Shown here piece by piece: positions 25,816 to 29,685 of a stretch of 64,000 nucleotides of DNA. The position numbers and the translations under genes were made by a program. The notes beneath the pieces were generated by a model. It was not told the DNA's origin and ran no database searches. It was given only the letters and a program-made list of their open reading frames with translations. Every line of letters starts with the position of its first letter. Position 1 is the stretch's first letter. The DNA lies in NCBI GenBank assembly GCA_030530825.1, contig JAUMUF010000001.1:386757-450756 (forward strand), written 5' to 3'. The DNA comes from a bacterium. GTDB lineage: Bacteria; Patescibacteriota; Saccharimonadia; Saccharimonadales; Saccharimonadaceae.

Positions 25816-26459
25816 TAGTTGGCTCCTTTTTCAATTTGTAGAATTATTTCATCCACTTCCGCCTGAGATTTAATTTTGTCGAGACGGATTTGGATTTTGC
25901 CCGGCGAAATTCCTTTGTCCAGCAAGAAATCCGCAATTTTTTGGCGATCTTCTGGGTTTATTTGGAATTTGGTGGGCTTTGGGGCTGGCGCAGGTTTTGC
26001 GGCTTTTTTCTCGTGAGTATTGGTGGCGTCGGCGTCCTTGGTGTCATCGATCAAAAAGAGACCATTCAAGGCGTATTTTCGCGCATAAGATGAGGCCGAG
26101 CCGGTGATCTGGCTCGCGTCCATACCTTTTTTGTTAAATTCTTCGCGAGCAAAAGCCGAAGCTTCGATTGTATGTTCGCCATCCGTTAACTTGGCGGTGG
26201 CTTTAACATAAAACCTTTCGCCAAAAACCTCATCACCTCCGGTCTTTGAACTTGCGCCACTGCCCAACACAATAATTTCATCACTGATGGTCAAGGTTAA
26301 ATTGTTTTCAACCAGTAGCGGTTTGACTGCTTCCAAAATATCTTCACACGAGCGGTAATTGTAGCTACCGAATTTGTTGCGTTGGTTTTTTGGTGCTTTC
26401 AATTTCGAAATAATTTGGCTGAGTTTTTGACTTAAATCTTTACTAATTTTTGGTTCCAT
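25815..26459 (-). CDS. erf: ERF-family single-strand annealing protein
   Basis: A 214-residue ERF protein: YNYRSCEDILEAVKPLL near residues 29-45, SASSYARKYALNGLFLIDD and DAD near 120-145, then a Pro/Lys linker and a small helical C-terminal domain. ERF proteins anneal complementary strands and help circularise or recombine phage genomes. The ATG is preceded by AAGGAGTCAGAT; nearly the same leader precedes the gene at 26783. Confidence 0.92.
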   Translation of the reverse strand: MEPKISKDLSQKLSQIISKLKAPKNQRNKFGSYNYRSCEDILEAVKPLLVENNLTLTISDEIIVLGSGASSKTGGDEVFGERFYVKATAKLTDGEHTIEASAFAREEFNKKGMDASQITGSASSYARKYALNGLFLIDDTKDADATNTHEKKAAKPAPAPKPTKFQINPEDRQKIADFLLDKGISPGKIQIRLDKIKSQAEVDEIILQIEKGAN

Positions 26460-26482
26460 ATCTGACTCCTTGTTTCTTAAAA

Positions 26483-26569
26483 TTAAAACGGCACTTCTTC
26501 AAATTTGCCTGTAAAAATATTAGTTCGAAAAATTATTTCACTTGGTATGTATTTAACTTGAATTTTCAT
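26483..26569 (-). CDS. Candidate 28-residue small protein
   Basis: A frame of 28 codons whose ATG lies just after the stop of the 70-residue gene, with AAAGGA at the right distance. It is basic with an amphipathic pattern (MKIQVKYIPSEIIF). Evidence is position and ribosome site only. Confidence 0.4.
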   Translation of the reverse strand: MKIQVKYIPSEIIFRTNIFTGKFEEVPF

Positions 26570-26570
26570 A

Positions 26571-26783
26571 TTAAAATCCTTTGCTCCAATATTCGTGATA
26601 TGCTTCAATGCTGGCAGGTTCTTCTTGGTCGAAAAGTCCGCTGCTGTCGGCGTATTCGTTGAGAAATCCACTGACGGCGTCTTCATCAAAATTTACGAAG
26701 TATTCGCCATCTTCAAACTGAATCGTGGCAAGGCCTTCATCAAACATAAATTTACAAAAATTGGTGAGTATTTGTTGTTCCAT
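26571..26783 (-). CDS. Small acidic phage-element protein
   Basis: A 70-residue, strongly acidic protein with many aromatic residues, preceded by AAGGAGTCAGAA. The acidity could indicate DNA mimicry or an inhibitor of a host nuclease, as small acidic phage proteins often are; this is conjecture. No family is recognised. Confidence 0.55.
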   Translation of the reverse strand: MEQQILTNFCKFMFDEGLATIQFEDGEYFVNFDEDAVSGFLNEYADSSGLFDQEEPASIEAYHEYWSKGF

Positions 26784-26797
26784 TTCTGACTCCTTGA

Positions 26798-27241
26798 TTA
26801 TCTAAATTTTAAGTAAGCCCCTGAGTTGTATGCGCTCCACGCGCGGTATCCTTGACTTCGCCAGATTTTGTAGGCGATCTGGATGTTTTGCGCAGGGTTG
26901 AAAAGCATTTGGGCGGGGTAGCTGTGAATGCTGTTGATCTGGAATAATCCGCGGTCAACGGTGCCATCTCGGTTGAGGCCGGTGTTGTCGGCGAGCGGGT
27001 TACAGCCGGATTCGGCGCGCATAATGGCGAGCATTGTTGGCGTATCCCACGGGTATTTTTCGACTTCAGATCGAAACTCTTCACACCGCCCGTAACTCCT
27101 GTGAACTCGCGAGATTTGGGGCGAGGGCGCAGGCTTTTTCTCCGTTAGAGCCGGCGCTTGGGGTTGGGGCGCAGTTTCGATTTTAGGCGAAGGTTTTGGC
27201 GTGGAATCCGCAACCTTTGGGCTTACTTTTGACTTAAATTT
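26798..27241 (-). CDS. Lytic transglycosylase/lysozyme-like domain, entered by -1 frameshift
   Basis: The frame is open from 27265 down to the stop at 26798, but no ATG, GTG or TTG occurs before 27034. The domain has the catalytic Glu in MRAESGCNP, then GLFQIN, IQIAYKIW and WSAYNSG. The ATG at 27034 would remove the first helix (WDTPTMLAIM begins before it). Upstream in the same frame lies a Pro/Lys linker. A -1 shift at AAATTTA (27241-27235) joins it to the membrane-anchor gene, giving about 241 residues: anchor, linker, catalytic domain. A plain frameshift mutation is the alternative. Confidence 0.7.
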   Translation of the reverse strand, partial: KFKSKVSPKVADSTPKPSPKIETAPQPQAPALTEKKPAPSPQISRVHRSYGRCEEFRSEVEKYPWDTPTMLAIMRAESGCNPLADNTGLNRDGTVDRGLFQINSIHSYPAQMLFNPAQNIQIAYKIWRSQGYRAWSAYNSGAYLKFR

Positions 27242-27253
27242 CGAACTTGCTCC
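27190..27253 (-). promoter_or_regulatory. Candidate programmed -1 ribosomal frameshift site
   Basis: The heptamer A AAT TTA (27241-27235) is in the correct phase, three sense codons before the zero-frame TAA. An internal GGAG lies 9 nt upstream and a stem AAGGTT/AACCTT (27217-27212 with 27195-27190, with GCG/CGC inside) starts 17 nt downstream. Confidence 0.65.
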
Positions 27254-27522
27254 GAGACTTTTTGGTTAAAATCTTGGTTGATTCTCTTCTGATGCTCTGC
27301 GCCAAGGTAGAAGCCGAGGGCGAGAATTGCGGCAATTGCGATAATGATCATTGCGAGATTGCCAAAGAATCGGTTAAAGTCAAAATTTTTAATCTTATTG
27401 ATAGTTTTTGGTGTTTTCATATTTTCTCCTTTTTGTGTTTTAATTGGTTCGACGATTTCGATTTTCTCATTTTTGATTTCTTCAAACTTTAGTTCGAAGT
27501 CGTCTTCTGATATTTTCTTCAT
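27223..27522 (-). CDS. Small membrane-anchor protein, zero-frame product of the split lytic gene
   Basis: A 99-residue protein with one transmembrane helix (about residues 55-77) and a charged end. The ATG at 27522 has AAAAGGAAA; a second in-frame ATG at 27420 has an even better site (AAGGAGAAAAT) and would give 65 residues. Alone it would be only a membrane segment; read through the frameshift it would anchor the lysozyme-like domain. It is the first gene of the early operon, directly after a 24-bp hairpin. Confidence 0.7.
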   Translation of the reverse strand: MKKISEDDFELKFEEIKNEKIEIVEPIKTQKGENMKTPKTINKIKNFDFNRFFGNLAMIIIAIAAILALGFYLGAEHQKRINQDFNQKVSEQVRNLSQK

Positions 27523-28033: not shown

Positions 28034-28714
28034 ATGGATAAAGTTTTTCGAAGGCGCAGATTAGTTTCGCTTATTGTCGCTGGAATTGTGGCAATTGCCG
28101 GGATTGTTTTTAACGAAAATTTCTACCAAAATAAAGTAAAGACCGAGCCTAATTCTGCCGCTTCGAAAGAAATTTCTTCAGTCAAAACAGACTTAGAAAG
28201 TCTCGAAGTTAAAGGTCGCGCACCCAAGACTGGCTATTCACGCAAGCAATTTGGCGACGGCTGGCAAAAAGACGCGAGCGGCTGCGACACACGCAATCGA
28301 ATCTTAAAACGCGATCTAAAAAACACAACCGAAAACTCAAAGTGCCAAATCTTAACAGGTATCCTCAATGACCCCTACACCGGCCAAGAAATTCATTTTG
28401 AAAGAAATAAAAACGCAGCAGCGGTCCAAATCGACCACGTCGTGGCGCTCAGCGATGCCTGGCAAAAAGGCGCACAAAATCTGGAATTTTCGAGAAGAAT
28501 TGAACTTGCCAACGACCCACTCAACCTTTTGGCCTCAGAAGGTGATGCCAACCAGAAAAAGGGAGACAGCGATGCCGCAACTTGGCTTCCGCCCAACAAG
28601 AATTTCCGTTGCCAATATGTTAAGCGACAAATTTCAGTTAAGAAAAAATATTCTCTCTGGGTGACCTTGTCGGAAAAATCCGCCCTATCATCCGTGCTGG
28701 AGACTTGCGCGTGA
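28034..28714 (+). CDS. Membrane-anchored or secreted HNH endonuclease (DUF1524/GmrSD-C type)
   Basis: A 226-residue protein. Residues about 8-28 form an N-terminal signal anchor; the nuclease domain has the core IDHVVALSDAW (133-143, Asp134 and His135), LANDPLNLLA (158-167) and NQKKGD, with WLPP and paired cysteines typical of the secreted DUF1524 family. The ATG at 28034 lies 7 nt after a TATAAT box; the longer frame runs into the tRNA and is not used. An extracellular nuclease could prepare DNA for ComEC uptake or feed nucleotide salvage (inference). Its stop overlaps the next start (GTGA). Confidence 0.88.
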   Translation: MDKVFRRRRLVSLIVAGIVAIAGIVFNENFYQNKVKTEPNSAASKEISSVKTDLESLEVKGRAPKTGYSRKQFGDGWQKDASGCDTRNRILKRDLKNTTENSKCQILTGILNDPYTGQEIHFERNKNAAAVQIDHVVALSDAWQKGAQNLEFSRRIELANDPLNLLASEGDANQKKGDSDAATWLPPNKNFRCQYVKRQISVKKKYSLWVTLSEKSALSSVLETCA

Positions 28715-29685
28715 TTCTTGGCATTGACGAAGTTGGCCGTGGCGCATGGGCTGGTCCGCTGGTGGTCGGTGCGTGCGTTTTGAACGGCGCAGAAATTGAC
28801 GGCCTTACCGACAGCAAGGCTATAACTAAAAAACAAAGAGAAGTTCTGGCGAAAAAAATCAAAAATTCGCCCGCAATTGTTGCGCTGGGTGAAGTCTCCT
28901 CTGCCGAAATCGACCAAATTGGTCTCGCCAAAAGCCTACGACTCGCCACTCGCCGCGCTGTCGAAAAAATCCAAATCCAATGTCGAGAAAAAGACGTTAA
29001 ATTCGACAAAATCATCATCGACGGGACTATCAATTTTCTCGCCAGCACCCCACTCGAAGCCCACACTTCAACGCTCAAAAAGGCGGATCTTCTGATTTCG
29101 AGCGTTTCAGCCGCAGCAATTTACGCCAAAGTTTATCGCGATAATCTAATGAGCGATCTCGCCAAAAATCCTGAATTTACTCATTATGGATTTGAAAATC
29201 ACGCCGGCTACGGCACCGCCAAGCATCGCTCAGCGCTGATTAAGTACGGCGCGAGTTCTCAACATCGACAGAGTTTTAAGCCTGTGGCGGAAATTCCTAA
29301 ACAATTTTCACCACCACAAGAGCAAAAACAACAAACCAAAATCACCACCAAGCAACTCGGCGATAAGGCGGAAGAAAAGGTCGCGGATTTTTTGCGCATG
29401 CAGGGCCACGAGATTTTAGCAAGAAATTGGCGCACTAAATTTTGCGAGATCGACATCGTTTCCAAATTGGGCCAAACTTATTATTTTACAGAAGTAAAAT
29501 ATCGCAAAAATGCGGATTTTGGCGGGGGCGAGGCGGCTATTTCCAAGAAAAAAATCGAGCAAATGCGCTTTTCTGCAGAATTATACGCCCATCAAAATTC
29601 AATAAAGAATGCCGAAATGCAACTTCTCGGCGCTATTGTTGAGGGGGACGGTTTTGAGATTCGAGATCTTTTTGAGATTTATTAG
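28711..29685 (+). CDS. rnhB: RNase HII fused to a YraN-type nuclease-fold domain
   Basis: A 324-residue two-domain protein. Residues 1 to about 195 are RNase HII (GIDEVGRGAWAGPLV, LTDSKA, an Asp in KIIIDGTINF, and SVSAAAIYAKVYRD), which removes ribonucleotides from DNA. After a Q/K linker, residues about 215-324 are a YraN/UPF0102 domain (LGDKAEEKVADFL, EIDIVSK, FTEVKYRK). The start is the GTG at 28711 that overlaps the HNH stop by 4 nt. In most bacteria rnhB and yraN are separate, sometimes adjacent genes; here they are one chain with all motifs kept. Confidence 0.93.
   Translation: MILGIDEVGRGAWAGPLVVGACVLNGAEIDGLTDSKAITKKQREVLAKKIKNSPAIVALGEVSSAEIDQIGLAKSLRLATRRAVEKIQIQCREKDVKFDKIIIDGTINFLASTPLEAHTSTLKKADLLISSVSAAAIYAKVYRDNLMSDLAKNPEFTHYGFENHAGYGTAKHRSALIKYGASSQHRQSFKPVAEIPKQFSPPQEQKQQTKITTKQLGDKAEEKVADFLRMQGHEILARNWRTKFCEIDIVSKLGQTYYFTEVKYRKNADFGGGEAAISKKKIEQMRFSAELYAHQNSIKNAEMQLLGAIVEGDGFEIRDLFEIY

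Follow-up and report, generated by a model that had tools for sequence, protein, structure and literature searches.

A probable programmed −1 frameshift linking a membrane anchor to a lysozyme-like domain in a prophage-like element and its phage relatives

Two overlapping reading frames in a prophage-like element

The window analysed here, a stretch of 64,000 nucleotides, lies within the genome of a tiny Saccharibacteria-type (TM7) host, which is 687 kb long and 99.5% complete (G000) and contains a single copy of the prophage. The prophage-like element occupies about 10.5 kb of the minus strand, at approximately 17.0–27.5 kb of the window, and is adjoined by a tRNA-Gly gene. It encodes the large and small subunits of terminase, an ERF recombinase, an exonuclease-like protein, a nuclease/resolvase-like protein and, as judged by eye, an SSB-like protein. 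No portal, capsid, tail or integrase gene was recognised among the element ORFs scanned, despite the presence of both terminase subunits, and no convincing att-type repeats were found around the element. It could be a satellite, or else a prophage in reduced form. Positions 26446–26484 and 26770–26808 form a 39-nt direct repeat (82%) that spans the ribosome-binding sites and starts of two successive genes, and its second copy falls at the lysozyme stop. On the plus strand, positions 28705–29685 hold a 326-aa ORF that resembles, by eye, RNase HII fused to a YraN/UPF0102-like nuclease domain.

The tRNA end of the element is occupied by a minus-strand ORF (27522..27223) for a membrane anchor of 99 amino acids, ending with the stop codon TAA at 27225–27223. 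A second minus-strand ORF, open from stop to stop at 27265..26798, encodes a proline-rich linker and a lysozyme-like (SLT) domain in the −1 frame. The two frames share 43 nt (27223..27265, minus strand), and any slip from one to the other must fall inside this overlap. The 3′ end of the anchor gene reads GAG CAA GTT CGA AAT TTA AGT CAA AAG TAA in zero-frame codons. The heptamer A_AAT_TTA is positioned at 27241–27235 of the minus strand, in the zero-frame phase and three codons before the stop, as the sequence-only reading of this DNA had proposed. In the SLT frame, no ATG, GTG or TTG occurs ahead of the ATG at 27034–27032, seven codons before the catalytic glutamate, and the first helix of the domain is therefore out of reach of any start codon, again in agreement with that reading. 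A fusion of the two frames is predicted to be 241 amino acids long.

The anchor contains a single transmembrane segment, LAMIIIAIAAILALGFYLG (residues 56–74; 27301..27357, minus strand). Its N-terminal flank is richer in lysine and arginine, which predicts an orientation with the N-terminus inside and the C-terminus outside. The mean Kyte-Doolittle hydropathy of the segment is 2.59, and the segment looks like a true anchor from its sequence. An internal in-frame ATG (Met35; 27418..27420, minus strand) preceded by the strong Shine-Dalgarno sequence AAAAAGGAGAAAATATG is a possible second start, which would give an anchor of 65 amino acids. The 3′ end of the host 16S rRNA, GGATTACCTCCTTT, contains CCTCC, and the anti-Shine-Dalgarno sequence is therefore present in the host.

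The catalytic domain (26816..27070, minus strand) has the SLT or c-type-lysozyme fold according to Pfam, AlphaFold2 (AF2) and Foldseek. The Pfam matches are SLT_3 (1.5e-10) and SLT (1.4e-8). The AF2 model has a mean pLDDT of 82, with values of 89–98 over the blocks of the domain, and its best solved matches in Foldseek are hen egg-white lysozyme. A profile search by sequence also finds EtgA and c-type lysozymes. The codon of the catalytic glutamate, in the motif RAESG, is located at 27011..27013 of the minus strand. With its Pfam match, catalytic glutamate and lysozyme fold, the domain is predicted to be muralytic.

Recurrence of the split gene among relatives

Protein and alignment searches identified 22 further split members in related genomes, viral contigs and the TM7 phage DolZOral124_53_65 (L134), giving a family of 23. 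The members from genomes are L003 (G004, same genus), L004 (G042), L005 (G057) and L032 (G160), and those from viral contigs are L054, L057, L059, L060, L061, L062, L064, L066, L067, L071, L137, L138, L140, L142, L144, L146 and L150. A single-protein query against viral contigs gave no matches, and a scan of genome contigs returned only two genomes, both already found. The SLT domains of the members are at most 75% identical to one another (median 42%), Pfam SLT_3 matches all 22 members scanned, and the catalytic glutamate is invariant across all aligned members. The anchors, each with one transmembrane segment, carry more lysine and arginine on the N-terminal side of it in 22 of 23 cases, which predicts that the N-terminus is inside and the C-terminus outside. 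The mean hydropathy of the segment ranges from 1.6 to 2.9.

All 23 members have the anchor in frame 0 and the SLT domain in frame −1, and none has the +1 arrangement. The members are related by descent, so that these counts do not represent independent events. A random mix of indels would give both phases. The sequence-only reading had named an uninterrupted frame or a lost heptamer in close relatives as grounds for abandoning the frameshift. The same-genus relative L003, which is about 60% identical, keeps the split and the −1 phase and retains CGA AAT TTA, together with a second AAATTTA and a TTTAAAC, and the other 21 members have the same arrangement of frames. This recurrence bears on the suspicion that the split in the window comes from a one-base error in sequencing or marks a pseudogene that recently acquired a frameshift mutation. 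The host genome has only one copy of the prophage, and the element looks reduced. However, 22 further assemblies or records show this split in the same phase, with their catalytic residues conserved, and the nearest relative is only about 60% identical to the window. An error or a dying gene is refuted for the family and is almost certainly not the explanation in the window.

Production of the lysozyme as a separate protein was also considered, in which an internal or unusual start, coupled to the anchor stop, would yield a cytoplasmic endolysin from a second gene. Several members have a GTG, TTG or ATG in the linker from which separate translation is conceivable; L005, L067 and L144 have such a GTG or ATG, and the GTG of L144 is positioned 8 nt past the zero-frame stop. 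However, 11 of the 23 members lack any ATG, GTG or TTG before the domain, and L146 is without a start codon even ahead of the catalytic glutamate. A separate start also leaves unexplained the phased slippery codons and fixed-spacing pseudoknots described below, as well as the relatives in which anchor and SLT domain are fused in a single frame. It was rejected for the family on the evidence of start-less members, phased sites and fusions, and is very unlikely.

The single-frame relatives, in which a transmembrane segment, a linker and an SLT domain form one ORF, were found in host genomes and viral contigs. Their occurrence supports the anchor–SLT fusion as a working enzyme, with the order of anchor, linker and catalytic domain that had been proposed from the window. 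A phylogenetic tree intermixes split and one-frame forms, with six changes. A single origin of the split is unsupported, since the tree mixes the two forms; as read from the tree, the split is a feature that was gained or lost several times. One record titled ‘Chloroflexi bacterium’ (L010, SEAL01000006.1) belongs, according to a genome search, to the same family as the window, and its label is probably wrong.

Further features were noticed in the anchors. The window, L003, L004, L032 and L057 have a further in-frame ATG preceded by a good Shine-Dalgarno sequence (e.g. AAAAAGGAGAAAATATG). The anchors made from such internal starts would have 53–65 amino acids, near the anchor size of other members, and by analogy with holin/antiholin pairs it is possible that two anchor starts are used. 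The peptide [KR]GEHxKD is conserved before the transmembrane segment in L005, L067, L142 and L146, where other members show KGEN or KGED plus methionine; the peptide may act as a protein motif or may be the remnant of a ribosome-binding site.

Slippery sites and downstream RNA structures

An in-phase A_AAA or T_TTA is present within the last eight anchor codons, inside the overlap, in all 23 members. These sites had already been seen when the slippery class W_WWA was defined; the class was then tested against codon shuffles and against the other two phases. In 5000 shuffles, a mean of 3.8 of the 23 members had such a site, with a maximum of 12. The 4-mers occur in 23 members in the zero-frame phase, compared to nine and seven in the other two. 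Both the phase and a site within the overlap are thus conserved throughout the family, which is the arrangement of a frameshift cassette.

Full X_XXY_YYZ sites are AAATTTA in the window and L003, TTTAAAC in L003, AAAAAAA in L004, L142, L144 and L146, CCCAAAA in L054, TTTAAAA in L060 and AAAAAAC in L134. The remaining members have GTCAAAA, GTTAAAA, GGTAAAA, AGTAAAA, ATCAAAA or GTCTTTA. Non-identical X_XX triplets have precedents in G_UU(A) of equine arteritis virus and C_CA(A) of the IS3 family, and a minimal Z_ZZN tetranucleotide is known to work (PMC5009743). The efficiency of frameshifting may be low, since the P-site codon cannot fully re-pair in most members.

RNA folding in sliding 55-nt windows across the members produced one peak of stability, 0–8 nt after the site, with a mean z-score of about −2.0, compared to about −0.3 elsewhere. 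An H-type pseudoknot at the right offset was detected in 12 of the 23 members, whereas the background was 0.36 on average and at most 3. The first stem begins 5–6 nt past the heptamer in nearly all of the 12; the pseudoknot of L005 is a looser variant with a later start. A spacer of 5–9 nt between slippery site and structure has precedent (PMC5009743). The arrangement in L064 is GTTAAAA-gcaacc-CAGTAG-ac-ACCGTC-g-CTACTG-uagaagaaauaaa-GACGGU. The second stems vary in sequence yet pair, as CCGTC/GACGG, GCCAC/GTGGC, CAGCC/GGCTG, GTCGC/GCGAC, AACTGT/ACAGTT and GACTGT/ACAGTC. Because stems were chosen for pairing, the real test is provided by the shuffle and position controls and not by covariation alone; every pseudoknot surpasses 150 dinucleotide shuffles (p<0.01). 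The strict scan detected no pseudoknot in the window, L003, L004, L054, L071, L134, L140, L142 or L144. By eye, L071 and L140 contain near-misses.

No convincing structure was found downstream of the site in the window or L003. The hairpin that had been suggested as a downstream signal in the window does not hold up in this role: its core (AAGGTT..AACCTT; 27217–27190, minus strand) is located 17 nt past the heptamer, or 12 nt counting two outer pairs, and its stability does not exceed that of shuffles (z 0.31 and 0.45), so that it is probably unimportant. The GGAG said to precede the heptamer is present, at 27253–27250 of the minus strand, although with a spacer of 8 nt instead of 9, and it was not seen in L003. 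It remains a candidate stimulator in the window. As a general stimulator, a Shine-Dalgarno-like element was rejected, since few members have one and it is no family rule. Candidate stimulatory structures are present at the level of the family; the window itself has only its GGAG and no near structure.

It is also conceivable that the fusion arises from slippage of the polymerase during transcription instead of that of the ribosome. Four members (L004, L142, L144 and L146) have A7 at the site. However, most sites have runs of 3–5 bases (five in the window, three in L003 and L059), and RNA structures at ribosome-type spacing point to translation. For these reasons transcript slippage was rejected for the family, and it is extremely unlikely.

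Programmed −1 frameshifting by the ribosome, with one gene giving rise to the anchor by itself and also to an anchored lysozyme, is very probably the explanation. It is read from sequence features, namely the overlap, phase, motif, structures of relatives, start-less frame, recurrence and single-frame fusions, whereas the slipping and its rate, the topology and the function are inferred. Most ribosomes would remain in frame 0 and terminate, producing a small protein with a single transmembrane segment, its N-terminus inside and its C-terminus outside. None of the 23 members has lost the anchor stop codon, so the short product is presumably useful. A fraction of ribosomes would move back by one base on reaching the phased slippery site shortly ahead of the stop and carry on in the −1 frame, adding the proline-rich linker and SLT domain to the same anchor. 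In the fusion, the SLT domain would be exposed on the outer side of the membrane, towards the cell wall. An RNA structure located about 6 nt past the site, in many cases an H-type pseudoknot, would promote the slip in most relatives. The window and L003 would instead employ the full two-tRNA heptamer A_AAT_TTA, to which the window adds the Shine-Dalgarno-like GGAG upstream.

Possible role and relation to known systems

A role in lysis is the most likely function of the two products. A limited amount of an anchored, SAR-like muralytic enzyme would be located beside an excess of anchor-only protein, which may be holin-like or may restrain the enzyme. The role could also be another one, such as the exclusion of superinfecting phages or a change to the wall of the small host, and this has a substantial probability, somewhat short of an even chance. 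The gene in the window is positioned among early or replication genes (ERF, SSB, nuclease), preceding ERF, and host genomes contain single-frame relatives. L054 has a separate M23-type enzyme next to a holin-like ORF (by eye), and L134 has a separate annotated amidase. Since these two members carry another cell-wall enzyme gene, their lysis may not depend on the frameshift lysozyme. Conversely, the gene of L061 is closely followed by ORFs that look terminase-like and portal-like (by eye), the lysis genes of phage lambda occupy a comparable place upstream of its terminase and portal region, and the enzyme class and anchor suit lysis. Control of lysis by an anchored lysozyme and excess anchor is favoured over other wall roles, with a confidence that is about evenly balanced. 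A tentative and more specific proposal is that of a one-gene lysis cassette, in which frameshifting fixes the ratio of a holin- or antiholin-like protein to a lysozyme tethered by the same anchor.

The closest mechanistic parallel is gpG/gpGT of phage lambda, where a −1 slip late in the first frame of a phage gene yields short and long products with a common N-terminus, whose ratio is likely important (PMC5009743). In contrast, the predicted product of the family described here is a membrane-anchored lysozyme and not a tail chaperone, and many members are of the pseudoknot type. Genes of lambda-type tail chaperones are positioned between those of the major tail and tape-measure proteins, which is not the case in the window, where the neighbours are ERF, SSB, nuclease and terminase genes and no tail genes are adjacent. 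IS3-family orfA/orfB and equine arteritis virus similarly have a structure 5–9 nt past the slippery site and allow a non-identical X_XX (PMC5009743), but their downstream frame encodes a transposase or replicase and not a cell-wall enzyme. Escherichia coli dnaX shares the upstream Shine-Dalgarno-like element, a possible stimulator in the window. However, its heptamer is A_AAA_AAG, whereas the window has A_AAT_TTA without a close 3′ hairpin, and frameshifting shortens the dnaX product but would lengthen that of the window.

SAR endolysin/pinholin pairs, such as those of phages HP1 and 21, resemble the family in their N-terminal transmembrane segment, lysozyme-type domain on the outside, as predicted here by the positive-inside rule, and possible small membrane partner. 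The anchor of the family appears to differ in its strong hydrophobicity, which gives no indication of release, and both products would come from one gene by frameshifting. The SLT protein of Rhodococcus phage Toil / P19 is among the nearest phage relatives of the catalytic domain in sequence and fold; it differs in being annotated as a putative entry lysozyme. The reviewed frameshifts of double-stranded DNA phages serve tail chaperones, coat or tail structural proteins (PMC5009743). No report of a frameshift-made endolysin was found in open-access full texts, although other literature may describe one. The mechanism is already known, and its use on a tethered muralytic enzyme appears to be new.

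Gene finders overlook the frameshifted lysozyme. In the TM7 phage DolZOral124_53_65, CQ476_31 (MG269973.1, 17587–18227), annotated as ‘lysozyme-like domain protein’, is the bare anchor only, and the lysozyme domain next to it, at −1, is unannotated. With this family, 23 naturally occurring frameshift signals, graded in design, become available from hard-to-culture bacteria. The family also offers a tangible way into the question of how tiny epibionts are lysed or modified by their phages. If the lysis cassette is real, translation itself would set the timing of lysis in phages of Saccharibacteria-type hosts.
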